DNA of 64,000 nt from Dehalococcoidia bacterium (GTDB lineage Bacteria; Chloroflexota; Dehalococcoidia; Bin125), in NCBI GenBank assembly GCA_022826965.1, contig JAJDTU010000001.1:124001-188000 (forward strand). The letters run 5' to 3'. The translations under genes were made by a program, and so were the position numbers. The notes beneath the pieces are model-generated. The model ran no database searches and had not been told where the DNA came from. It saw only the letters and a list, made by a program, of their open reading frames with translations. This document shows, in pieces, positions 25,343-31,615 of this stretch. Position 1 is the first letter of the stretch, and each line of letters opens with the position of its first letter.

Positions 25343-27676
25343 CTAACGCGGGCTAATCGGCTTCGGCGGCGGCTCGTCGGGGTCGCGCCTCGCGGTCAGG
25401 CCGGCGATCACGTCCGCTTCCAGTAATCGTTCGATCTCCACCTCGGCCAGGCAGAGCGTCTCTTGCAGAATCTCAAGGGTGTGCTCACCCATTCTCGGCG
25501 CCGGCCGATCGCACGAGGCCGGGCGCCGGCGCAGACGCCAGGGGAATCCCTGGTACTGTCGTGTGCCCGTGTCGGCGTGAGTCAGATGCAGCCACCAGTC
25601 CCGAGCGGACAGGTGAGGATCTCGCAAGTGGGTCAACGTCGAGTGAACCGCCGCGGCCGGGACACCAATCGCCTGCAGCCGGTGTTGCAGCGTCTGTGAG
25701 TTCCAGCCTCGGGTCCACTCCGTCAGCGCAGCCTCCAGGTTGGCCTCGTCCGACTTGCGACCCTCCGCCGTTCGCCATTCAAGTCGATCGAGATCCGCCT
25801 CCTCCGCGAGCCGCAGCCAGGTCTCGTCGTCCCTGACCGAGATGGCGATCCACTCGTCGCTAGCGTCGACACCGTCGGCGCAACGGAAGCACTCGTGCGG
25901 CGCGACCTCGGGCAGACGATTCCCGTTGCGCGCTGGCATCTCCACTCCCGCCGAGCCGGCCAGCAGGTACTCGTCGATGTAGGCGACGGCCGACTCGAAC
26001 ATCGAACCCTCGACGTGTACCGCCGTTCGCGCGTGCTGCGCGCGCAGCGCCGCCGCCAGCGCCGAGGCCGCCATCTGCGCACCGACGATCGGGTCGGCTT
26101 GCATCGTGCCGAGCATCAGCGGGGCTTCGCCGTGATAGCCGTAGAGCAGATCCCAACCGGCGTTTCCCTCGGTGGTGCCGCCGTTGGCGCGGAAGTTGTC
26201 GTACGGACCACCCGTCCCGAATCCTGAGAAGGACACCAGCGCGATGTGAGGATTGGCCTCGCGCATGTGCTCGTGTGTCAGGCGCAGATTCTGCAACACG
26301 CGAGGTCGGAAGTTCTCCAGCACTACGTCGGCCTGAGCGATCAAATCGAGCGCCAGCTCGCGGCCTGGCTCGGTATCGAGGGCAATGGAGATCGTGCGCT
26401 TGCCGCGATTGGCCATGTTGAAGTTCGGCCGAACGTTCAAGGGATGCGCGTCGGGAGAGGCCACCCGCATCGGTCCCATCGCTTCATAGCGCCAGAGGTC
26501 GGGGCGCTTCGGCCCCTCGACCTTGATGACCTCGGCGCCCAGGTCGCTCAGCAGCCCCGAGGCGTACGGCCCCAGCCAGGCGTGGGTGAAATCGACGACC
26601 CGCAAACCGTCGAGCGGACCGCCTGATGTCTCGGGCCTCGCCCGCAAGGCAAACCGATCCGAGCGCTCCGTTTCGTTCTCGAACTCGGCCACTCGCATCG
26701 CTCGTCCTGCGCCGGCCAGGCCATTCTCGGTCCGGAAAAAGTCGATCGCGTTGAGCTGCGGATCGTCAAGCAACTGCTGCGCCGAGCGATGCATCGCCAT
26801 CACCGAGCCAAGCTCGGATAGTTTCGTCCAGATCGTCCGCGCATCCATCGACTCGATGATCGGCAGCAGGTACTGCTTCGACGGCTCTTGCTCAGCAAAT
26901 CGTGCGTCGCCTTCGAGCAACTCGGGAGGCGGTGGATCGCTACCGAAGGCGACCGGCGCGTTGCGCAGCGTCTCCTTCGACCAGGGCGAGATCGTGATGT
27001 AGCCGTCCGTCGTCTGCATGACCTCAGACCAGCCGGGAGTCCCGCCGACGCGGGGCAGGGCCTCGCCCAGGAACTCCGAGCGCAGCGCCATGATCAACGT
27101 CGAACATGCCTCGTGCGAGGAGAGCTCAATCCACTCGCCCTTGCCGGAATGCATCCGCTCGAGCAGCGCCGCCAGGGCGGCCACGGCGCCGAGAATGCCG
27201 ATCGTGCGCGGTATGATCGCGGCCGGCGCAGCCAGCGGCTCCCGCCCCGCAAGTCCGTTCGTGCCGGCGAACCCGGACAGCGCCTGGATCAGCAGGTCAT
27301 CGGCTTGGTACTCGGAGTACGGGCCATCCGTGCCATACGGCGACGAATGCACCACCACGAGACGCGGACACTCCTCGGCCACCCCGTTGAGCTCCGCAAG
27401 GGGCGCGTCGGTGACCAGCACGTCCACCTCGGCAAGCCCTGCCCGCCACGCTCCCGTGTTCAACACCTTGCCGACGTTCAGCGACTCCCGCAGCAGCGAG
27501 ATCCTCTTACCGTTCCGCTCGAGAGTCGGCGGTGCAGTGCGCAGCAGGGAATCAGGTGACTCGAAGGTCAGTACGTCCGCACCCCAGCGTGCGAACTCGC
27601 GCGCGCAGGCCGCCGCCGGCACGTCGCGGCTGTACTCGACCACTCGAATGCCGCTGAGTAGGTTCCCGTCCGACAC
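25343..27676 (-). CDS. Two-domain CaiB/BaiF (class III) CoA-transferase, N-terminal half lacking the catalytic Asp
   Basis: 777 aa, two tandem CaiB-like domains in one chain (about 1-345 and 355-750), each starting with a G-x-R-V-V/D-x-x GADV/GAEV segment (LSGIRVVEYS; LDGLRVVDFTHAWLGP). Class III enzymes move CoA between carboxylic acids through an Asp-acyl anhydride. In the C-terminal half the expected Asp is present (QADPIVGAQ, Asp528). In the N-terminal half the aligned position is Pro156 (IIPRTIG). The chain may be a pseudo-dimer with one active site. It ends the minus-strand unit hydrolase/hydratase/transferase; the acid substrate is unknown. Confidence 0.88.
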   Translation of the reverse strand: MSDGNLLSGIRVVEYSRDVPAAACAREFARWGADVLTFESPDSLLRTAPPTLERNGKRISLLRESLNVGKVLNTGAWRAGLAEVDVLVTDAPLAELNGVAEECPRLVVVHSSPYGTDGPYSEYQADDLLIQALSGFAGTNGLAGREPLAAPAAIIPRTIGILGAVAALAALLERMHSGKGEWIELSSHEACSTLIMALRSEFLGEALPRVGGTPGWSEVMQTTDGYITISPWSKETLRNAPVAFGSDPPPPELLEGDARFAEQEPSKQYLLPIIESMDARTIWTKLSELGSVMAMHRSAQQLLDDPQLNAIDFFRTENGLAGAGRAMRVAEFENETERSDRFALRARPETSGGPLDGLRVVDFTHAWLGPYASGLLSDLGAEVIKVEGPKRPDLWRYEAMGPMRVASPDAHPLNVRPNFNMANRGKRTISIALDTEPGRELALDLIAQADVVLENFRPRVLQNLRLTHEHMREANPHIALVSFSGFGTGGPYDNFRANGGTTEGNAGWDLLYGYHGEAPLMLGTMQADPIVGAQMAASALAAALRAQHARTAVHVEGSMFESAVAYIDEYLLAGSAGVEMPARNGNRLPEVAPHECFRCADGVDASDEWIAISVRDDETWLRLAEEADLDRLEWRTAEGRKSDEANLEAALTEWTRGWNSQTLQHRLQAIGVPAAAVHSTLTHLRDPHLSARDWWLHLTHADTGTRQYQGFPWRLRRRPASCDRPAPRMGEHTLEILQETLCLAEVEIERLLEADVIAGLTARRDPDEPPPKPISPR

Positions 27677-29446: not shown

Positions 29447-30505
29447 ATGGCCTTCGAGTACGACGGCGTCGACCTGCCGATCCGAGAGAAAACAATCTCA
29501 TCCCAGCGCATGAGCTGGGACGTGATCGCCGCGCCGGGCCGTTGGTGGACGGGCGCCGAGCGGGTCGAAATCGCAAGAATCGGTCGCGCCGCACGAGACT
29601 TCGAGGCCGTCGGCAGCGAGATCCTGCCCGAGGCCGCGGTCTACGCAGTTCAGAAACTGGTCGTCGATAACGCGAATCTGAATCGCGAGTGGTACAACCA
29701 GATCATCGCCATGCCCGGCATGACCGAGGATCGCTACGTCGAACTGGTCGCGGTGGTCGTGCACGCGCTCTCGATCGACGAGTTTCACCGCGCCCTCGGC
29801 CTCGCTCTCGAGCCCCTGCCCGAGCCATCAAGCGGGGAACCCTCGCGACAACGCCCGGCCGAGGCCGAGCAGCGGTACTCCTGGCCGCCGATCGTGCCGA
29901 AAGGCGGCTTGAACCCCGGCGATCAGACGCTCTACGGGCCGATGGAGTGGGGCGCCAATGTCATCTCGGCCCTGTCGCTGATTCCCGAGAACGTCCGCTG
30001 GCTGCACGACCTCTCGGAGGGCCACTACCTGTCCTTCGCAGAGATGCGCCAGCCCGACCCGCTGCGCGCCATTTCCCGCTCTCAGATTGAGCTGATCGCT
30101 GCCCGGGTCTCGGCGCTGAACGAGTGCTTCTATTGAACCGCCTCGCACGTACGCATGCTCCGTGAGAGCAGCCAGCGAAGCGGCACCCTCGACAGCCTCA
30201 ACCTTCAGGGCACGGTCAACCCCGACACCGATAGCGGCGTTGCCCACGGCAGCCTGCTGACCGCCTTCGCCGAAGCCGCCGTCCGACAAACCGACGCCCT
30301 GCCCGGCCTGCGCAAACGAATCGCGACTGAGCTTGGCCCGCAGGAGCTGGTCGACGCCGCCGGGATCGTGGCCAACTTCCAGCGCATGGTGCGGATCGCC
30401 GACGGCTGCGGCATCCCGCTCGACGACTTCACCAGGGAAGCCACCGACGATTGCCGCGAGGAGCTCGGCATCCACGAGTACGCCTCCGCCGCAAACACCG
30501 CATAG
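29447..30505 (+). CDS. AhpD/CMD-like selenoprotein, copy 1 (TGA at 30134-30136 read as selenocysteine)
   Basis: 352 aa if TGA codon 230 is selenocysteine. The active-site array matches AhpD peroxidases exactly: Glu215, Cys227, Sec230, His234 reproduce E-x11-C-x2-C-x3-H (E118/C130/C133/H137 of M. tuberculosis AhpD) in VSALNECFY-U-TASH. Residues 20-130 form a preceding helical CMD-like half (WWTGAER, YVELVAVVV, SIDEFHRALG). About 120 residues follow the TGA and are homologous to those of copy 2 (NFQRMVRIADGCGIPLD is identical), showing protein-level constraint beyond the TGA. The ATG has GAGGTG 5 bases upstream. The likely role is thiol/selenol-dependent peroxide or disulfide reduction; the reductant is unknown. 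Confidence 0.85.
30137..30183 (+). promoter_or_regulatory. Predicted bacterial SECIS hairpin, copy 1
   Basis: Directly after the TGA. The outer stem pairs 30138-30146 with 30175-30183 (8 of 9 pairs). The inner stem pairs 30153-30160 with 30166-30172 (7 pairs, one bulged A at 30155). The apical loop CGUGA is at 30161-30165, 24 bases after the TGA, with G in its second position. Known bacterial SECIS elements are in-frame hairpins at this distance. Pairing was worked out by eye. Confidence 0.7.
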
Positions 30506-30520
30506 AGTTCGGAACCCGAC

Positions 30521-31615
30521 ATGACCACGACGACCGAGGCCTTTGCCTACGCCGACGGCACCTGGCCCGTGCTCGAGCGCGTGCCGGAGGCGCACCGACG
30601 CAGTTGGACCATGCTGGCCTCGGCCGGCGAATGGTGGACCGGCGCTGAGCGAATCAGCATCGCTGCGGAATGTCGTCGCGCCTCAGCATTGGTCGACGGT
30701 CGGCCGGATCCCGGACGTGGCCCGGCGGTACTGCCCGATGCAGCGACCTTCGCCGTCCACAAGCTGATTGGCGACTTGCCCAACGTCACCCGCGACTGGT
30801 ACGACGAGACGATCAGCGCCGAAGGCATGTCCGACGCCCACTACATCGAGCTGCTCGGTGTCGTCGTCCACGTCTGGTCGATCGACGAGTTCCACCGCGC
30901 ACTGAGCATCGATCTGGAGCCACTTCCCGATCCGATCCCCGGCGAGCCGACCCGGATTCGTCCCGCCGGAATCAGGGCGAACGGCAGTTGGCCGCCCACG
31001 ATCCTGCCGGAGGATCTGCACGAAACTGAAGCGGACATCTACGGCGGATCAGAGCGGACGTCCAATGTGCGCGCCGCAATGAGCCTGCATCCCGACAGCG
31101 TCCGCTGGCTCAGCGATCTATTCGACGCCCACTACCTGAGCTGGGTCGAGATTCAATCGGTGCAGGAGCCGTTTCGGGTGCTCACCCGTCCGCAACGAGA
31201 GCTGGTCGCTGCCCGGGTGTCTGCGCTGAACGAGTGCTTCTATTGAACGATCTCGCACGTGATGCTGCTCGGTCGGAGCAGCGAGGGCAATGACGCGCTG
31301 AACCTCAACGGCACGGTGAGCAACGAGATCGACAGTGGTGTCGAGCACGGCGACGTGTTGCTGCGCTACGCCGACGCTGCCGTCCGCCGTGGTCCCGACC
31401 TCGCGGAAACTCGCGAGGCACTCAATGCCGCCATGGGACCCGACGCCGTCGTGGACTGCGCCGCGACCATTGCCAACTTCCAGCGAATGGTCAGAATCGC
31501 GGACGGCTGCGGCATTCCCTTGGACTCGTTCTCAAGGCGCGAGTCGGAGAAGTGGCGAGACGATCTCGGGATTGACAGCTTCCGCAGCCGCGAGAATACG
31601 TTCGGCCAGAGCTGA
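30521..31615 (+). CDS. AhpD/CMD-like selenoprotein, copy 2 (TGA at 31244-31246 read as selenocysteine)
   Basis: 364 aa with Sec242. The same active site: Glu227, Cys239, Sec242, His246 in VSALNECFY-U-TISH. It is paralogous to copy 1 along the whole length: WWTGAER near residue 35, YIELLGVVVH, SIDEFHRALS, LEPLPDP, and after the TGA ALNLNGTV, DSGVEHGD and NFQRMVRIADGCGIPLD. The ATG lies 15 bases after the copy 1 stop, so both are in one operon. The final TGA at 31613-31615 is the real stop. Nucleotides around the internal TGA (about 24) are identical in both copies. The next gene, ribH, converges 7 bases later, leaving almost no 3' untranslated gap. Confidence 0.85.
31247..31287 (+). promoter_or_regulatory. 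Predicted bacterial SECIS hairpin, copy 2
   Basis: A perfect 7-bp stem pairs 31264-31270 with 31276-31282 around the loop GGUCG (31271-31275). Its GGUC matches the start of the E. coli fdhF SECIS apical loop (GGUCU). The loop starts 24 bases after the TGA, the same distance as in copy 1. A short outer stem (31251-31254 with 31283-31286) may extend it. Confidence 0.75.

Follow-up and report, generated by a model that had tools for sequence, protein, structure and literature searches.

The window analysed here is a stretch of 64,000 nucleotides from a Dehalococcoidia bacterium. It contains two adjacent genes, A and B, each of which has a single in-frame TGA. An earlier note, made from the sequence alone, proposed that they code for selenoproteins. 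Is this TGA read as selenocysteine (Sec), and if so, what kind of proteins are these? The best overall explanation is, in our opinion, a fairly secure one: A and B would be selenoproteins of the NCBIfam family NF041238, made from a short operon, with SECIS-driven Sec insertion, fused AhpD domains and a redox role.

Two adjacent genes with in-frame TGA codons

Gene A (29447..30505, forward strand) codes for an AhpD-related protein of 352 amino acids and ends with a TAG stop. Its in-frame TGA (30134..30136, forward strand) corresponds to residue 230. Gene B (30521..31615, forward strand) codes for a paralogue of 364 amino acids. Its in-frame TGA (31244..31246, forward strand) corresponds to residue 242, and its terminal stop is also TGA. 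Standard gene calling would truncate both genes at the in-frame TGA. The spacer between them has 15 bases (30506..30520, forward strand), which is consistent with a single transcript.

When the TGA is read through, both proteins are 50% identical over their full length. The motif E215-x11-C227-x2-U230-x3-H234 of A is found with identical spacing in B, 122 residues follow the U in each protein, and the stretch NFQRMVRIADGCGIPLD is the same in both. The earlier note had described a two-gene unit of AhpD/CMD-like selenoproteins, with one TGA in each paralogue, exact spacing of Glu, Cys, U and His, about 120 homologous codons past the TGA and identical blocks in this downstream part: All this agrees with our results. 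It had also mentioned about 24 identical bases around the TGA. The identity is real, its measured length is 26 contiguous bases (21 before the TGA and 5 from its T on). In both genes, GC at the codon positions is equal upstream and downstream of the TGA.

A known family of selenoproteins

Both proteins belong to NF041238 (AhpD_rel_CFYUT, "alkylhydroperoxidase-related (seleno)protein", 357 positions). A scores 353 bits (profile positions 1-356, E 2e-105) and B 343 bits (positions 3-357, E 2e-102), the curated cut-off being 175, and both contain the C-F-Y-U/C-T motif together with the spaced Glu, Cys and His of AhpD. Their lengths, 352 and 364 amino acids, are normal for this family, not unusual as had been thought. 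Scores with related profiles are below the corresponding cut-offs: A and B give 33.2 and 31.3 bits with TIGR01926 (peroxidase-related enzyme, cut-off 81.8), and A gives 13.8 bits with the AhpD profile TIGR00777 (cut-off 191.95).

The Sargasso Sea selenoproteome study of 2005 presented "hypothetical protein 1" as a selenoprotein (PMC1088965), and a 2026 review lists NF041238 as this AhpD-related protein (PMC13188914). Sec at this position of the family was therefore already known. What is new is the conserved, old tandem pair and the two-domain, sestrin-like fold. We have found no assayed NF041238 enzyme in the literature searched.

In about 1,150 genomes, 83 NF041238 matches were listed over the cut-off, and each of them has a single TGA. 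They are found in the class of the window (32), in the class of an alphaproteobacterial metagenome-assembled genome (MAG) (50) and in that of a gammaproteobacterial MAG (1). The TGA is at the same position in the 67 family genes (67/67) which were read letter by letter. No Cys-containing member appears among the 83 matches listed over the cut-off in the three classes sampled; the 2005 study counted a few (PMC1088965). A tblastn search for plasmid-borne relatives found none.

Some other observations concern this family. Two of its genes, L028 and L029, are about 98% identical and come from MAGs labelled Alphaproteobacteria and Gammaproteobacteria, a case of either recent transfer or mis-binning. 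AhpD-like relatives with a TGA and a score under the NF041238 cut-off are common in the class of the window; some stand in clusters of two or three (G239:C22 and G356:C96 are examples). Two more distant AhpD-like genes, with CxxU in each, adjoin each other at L050:1600-2400 (genome G005:C124).

Evidence for Sec insertion

The genome which contains the window is a draft of 3.0 Mb, 97% complete. A search of the genome, which the earlier note had suggested, detects the full Sec machinery in it: selA (523 bits, cut-off 268), selB (325 bits, or 347 with a second piece, curated cut-off 242), tRNA-Sec with a UCA anticodon (70 bits, cut-off 47) and selD (352 bits). A genome devoid of this machinery would argue against Sec; with these four genes present, this objection does not apply. 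In addition, selA is present in all 18 genomes of the class (18/18) which hold NF041238 over the cut-off, compared with 254/393 overall, a background which makes this co-occurrence supportive but not decisive. The selD gene (G000:C12:264989-265930, L017) itself has one in-frame TGA near its start, in the motif RCGGUGSKFGP, which we take to be the Sec site of SelD itself: In this genome, selD is a selenoprotein gene too.

Selection was estimated as dN/dS against 12 orthologues each for A and B. Downstream of the TGA, A has values of 0.11-0.24 and B of 0.06-0.45, close to the upstream ones (0.08-0.23 and 0.07-0.25), and at most one codon is gapped in comparison with the orthologues. Purifying selection acts on the downstream region, which does not decay by indels, as expected by the earlier note. 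A pseudogene or a frameshift is rejected, since this region is both selected and almost gap-free. The highest values for B stem from the lineage formed by L061 and L073, whose B tail has an A-like sequence.

In fact, gene B of these two loci (L061:1624-2706 and L073:244-1326) has a C-terminal tail which ends in YASAANT, like the neighbouring A, and LGLHQYASAANT is present in both copies of L061. This may be the result of gene conversion within the pair.

A hairpin of the bacterial SECIS type follows both TGA codons and recurs across the family; the earlier note had recommended looking for it. It has a (T)GCTC/GAGC(A) stem and a five-base loop, which is CGTGA in A (GCATGCTC-CGTGA-GAGCAGC, 30153..30172, forward strand) and GGTCG in B (GCTGCTC-GGTCG-GAGCAGC, 7 pairs, 31264..31282, forward strand). 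The loop starts 24 bases past the TGA in both cases. Bacterial SECIS elements are described as having a loop of 3-9 nt with G in one of its first two places, a stem of 4-16 pairs, a distance of 16-37 nt from the UGA and a minimum free energy of -7.5 or below (PMC13188914). Both hairpins are within these limits, with loops CGUGA and GGUCG, a distance of 24 nt, and energies of -9.3 kcal/mol for A and -13.7 kcal/mol for B in 30-base segments.

As its inner stem is almost invariant, this hairpin shows weak covariation: The three innermost pairs are kept in 35-36 of 36 distinct family sequences. For this reason, codon-choice tests were used instead. In the 5' arm, CTC is used for Leu at +8 in 64/65 genes, although it makes up 28% of the Leu codons in the rest of these genes; in the 3' arm, Ser at +11 is coded by AGC or AGT in 63/65 genes (41% elsewhere). 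These counts are not independent trials, since the 65 genes are related. When stability is compared with that of synonymous recodings, only one of 12 offsets, +15, is clearly above expectation (mean z -0.98), the others having mean z values from -0.39 to +0.22. Taken individually, the hairpin of B shows a clear effect (z -2.2), while that of A does not stand out (z -0.67).

All these data bear on the possibility that the TGAs are true stops, with truncated proteins, pseudogenes or regulatory readthrough as a result. Under the standard code both frames do end at the TGA. Nevertheless, the low downstream dN/dS, the near absence of gaps, the conservation of core residues, the presence of the same TGA in every one of the matches listed, the hairpin and the complete Sec machinery make this very unlikely. 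Reading of TGA as Trp can be dismissed as practically inconceivable, since TGG is used 7 times in A and 10 times in B, B has TGA as its own terminal stop, the UCA tRNA is tRNA-Sec, and AhpD homologues have Cys at this position. Judging from the sequences, A and B are almost certainly genuine selenoproteins which read UGA as Sec.

Conservation and origin of the tandem pair

To study the distribution of the pair, we sampled 15 genomes from the genus. In 11/15 the two genes are adjacent; in G117 A is in place and B lies on another contig, G194 has only A, and two genomes, one of them highly fragmented, have neither. A remnant of gene B is found at L023:5041-5202, between A and ribH, with 38% identity over 91 C-terminal residues.

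In the tree, A and B form one clade each, with full support. G140, a genome from another genus, has two neighbouring copies, one of which joins A, so the split between A and B probably predates the genus. Support is weak (80/43) at the fork from which its exact date would follow. A and B are ancient sister lineages. Genomes in the alphaproteobacterial sample have up to four copies, with one tandem pair (G692). The copies of this pair, found at L106:234-2565, group together in the tree, which indicates that it arose separately. Contrary to what the earlier note had supposed, the occurrence of two such genes in one operon is not unusual: The pair has been conserved within the genus, and the AhpD family has tandem selenoproteins elsewhere too.

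The flanks of the pair are constant. One flank has genes for a CaiB-family CoA-transferase, an enoyl-CoA hydratase and, in most cases, an alpha/beta hydrolase, the other has ribH and ribBA. All of them are on the opposite strand, so they provide neither an operon partner nor a hint about function. Scans for promoters and terminators were uninformative. The protein of 777 residues encoded by one gene in the window (25343-27676, reverse strand) contains two stretches of CoA-transferase family III and seems to be a fused duplicate.

The nearest relatives of A and B are found in Chloroflexota and Dehalococcoidia MAGs. One of them (MPNM, bin125) was obtained from the sponge Aplysina aerophoba, in a study which reported selA and selB as enriched in sponge symbionts (PMC5649159). 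The pair offers a clean example of Sec usage, with good support, in an uncultured lineage which has sponge relatives.

Two-domain architecture

The earlier note had described a long C-terminal extension. We find instead that residues 208-335 of A (30068..30451, forward strand), which can be aligned with AhpD-related enzymes whose structure is known (PDB 6k40) and with TIGR01926, are a normal AhpD core, which contains the relay residues E215, C227, Y229, U230 and H234. It is the N-terminal half that is extra. This N-terminal domain (29447..29884, forward strand) has an AhpD-like fold without the CxxC present there in many relatives: Most members in the alphaproteobacterial sample have it, A, B and several others do not. 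A and B keep the C-terminal helix-turn-helix with CxxU, as defined previously (PMC4674687, PMC11429811).

An AlphaFold2 model of A, with Sec modelled as Cys, has a pLDDT of 94 and a pTM of 0.93. When the whole model is compared with known structures by VIA-align, human Sestrin2 ranks first (Z 17.8, 240 residues, rmsd 3.3 A), with positions 1-324 of the model superposed on positions 76-477 of the chain. Single-domain AhpD-like proteins reach Z 14.5 and cover only positions 142-334, the next unrelated row has Z 2.7. When the N-terminal domain is folded alone, the first 12 rows are AhpD-like (Z 9.2 to 7.0), and unrelated structures appear from 4.5 down. Both comparisons lead to a fused pair of AhpD domains in a sestrin-like arrangement. 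By sequence, the internal duplication is only suggestive (hhalign P 0.0013, probability 19%), it is the structure that carries the claim. No sestrin family or chain was found by sequence at E <= 10, and the link to sestrins is based on the modelled fold; it may reflect remote homology. No match at E 0.001 was found in a library of viral protein structures.

Active site and proposed mechanism

The relay of PA0269 consists of Glu36, Cys48, Tyr50, Cys51 and His55 (PMC3141380). It corresponds to Glu215, Cys227, Tyr229, Sec230 and His234 of A. In the AhpD of M. tuberculosis, Cys133 forms a mixed disulfide with AhpC, and Cys130 is partly buried (PMC6626918). The Sec of A and B is found at the position of Cys133, an attacking rather than a clearly resolving one, so the "resolving cysteine" position of the earlier note is not well established. 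The first Cys is the more important one in the AhpD of Burkholderia, so Sec may play either role.

From these correspondences we infer that A and B are probably Sec-dependent reductases of peroxides or disulfides. Both would be made as one short operon, SelB and tRNA-Sec(UCA) reading UGA because of the SECIS hairpin, whose loop lies 24 bases away. The N-terminal AhpD-like domain would have lost its cysteines, and the C-terminal domain would carry the relay. Sec230 might attack a hydroperoxide or an oxidised partner, Cys227 might then close a selenenylsulfide as the resolving residue, and a cellular thiol donor might reduce it.

Other functions may be considered. A and B could be disulfide adaptors: As AhpD does with AhpC, they would transfer electrons to a peroxiredoxin, with dihydrolipoyl or thioredoxin as the donor, and would not reduce peroxides themselves. 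All the relay residues are kept, and M. tuberculosis AhpD reduces AhpC through the residue which Sec replaces here (PMC6626918), but no peroxiredoxin gene lies beside the pair, only the CaiB, enoyl-CoA hydratase, hydrolase and riboflavin genes; we consider this a possible, less likely function. Action on a specific organic substrate, such as reductive dehalogenation of the kind performed by the AhpD-like debrominase Bmp8, appears improbable. Brominated compounds are common in marine sponges, relatives of A and B occur in marine sponge metagenomes, and Bmp8 is among the structural matches (6ohi and 6ohj, Z 13.8 and 13.6; Z 7.2 for the N-terminal domain). Nevertheless, the single-domain AhpD-like peroxidase-related proteins mentioned above match equally well or slightly better, and the PDB relatives found by sequence are AhpD-like proteins, not Bmp8. 

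Comparison with known systems

A fold and a two-domain architecture can now be assigned to a selenoprotein family which has been listed as hypothetical for twenty years. It also provides a bacterial, Sec-bearing counterpart for testing the origin of sestrin-type proteins.

A and B resemble NF041238 proteins in general in their full-length match, the CFYUT motif, CxxU with Sec in second place and equal length. They differ in being two diverged tandem copies and in having no CxxC in the N-terminal domain, where many alphaproteobacterial members have one.

Sestrins (human Sestrin2, PDB 5t0n and 5dj4) also have two fused AhpD-like domains with the same relative placement. In sestrin, however, the catalytic residue, Cys125, is kept in the N-terminal domain and the C-terminal site is lost (PMC4674687), A and B present the reverse situation. 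We may speculate that NF041238 is a Sec-bearing prokaryotic version of the sestrin architecture, derived from an ancestor with a redox pair in each domain: Sestrins would have kept the N-terminal pair and the Chloroflexota lineage only the C-terminal Sec site, the N-terminal domain being repurposed, perhaps for binding a substrate or ligand, and A and B would have different jobs or form a mixed complex. This proposal is rather doubtful.

Sestrin-like fused AhpD proteins have been reported in bacteria (PMC11429811), without mention of selenoproteins. Those of Corynebacterium ureicelerivorans and Comamonas aquatica are similar to A and B, they keep the C-terminal site and have an N-terminal domain without cysteines, but their site has two Cys (PMC11429811). 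Finally, AhpD and peroxidase-related enzymes (TIGR01926; 6k40, 2oyo, 2prr; PA0269, 2o4d) share with A and B the C-terminal fold, the five relay residues and their spacing. The differences are Sec in place of the second Cys and an additional AhpD-like domain in front.
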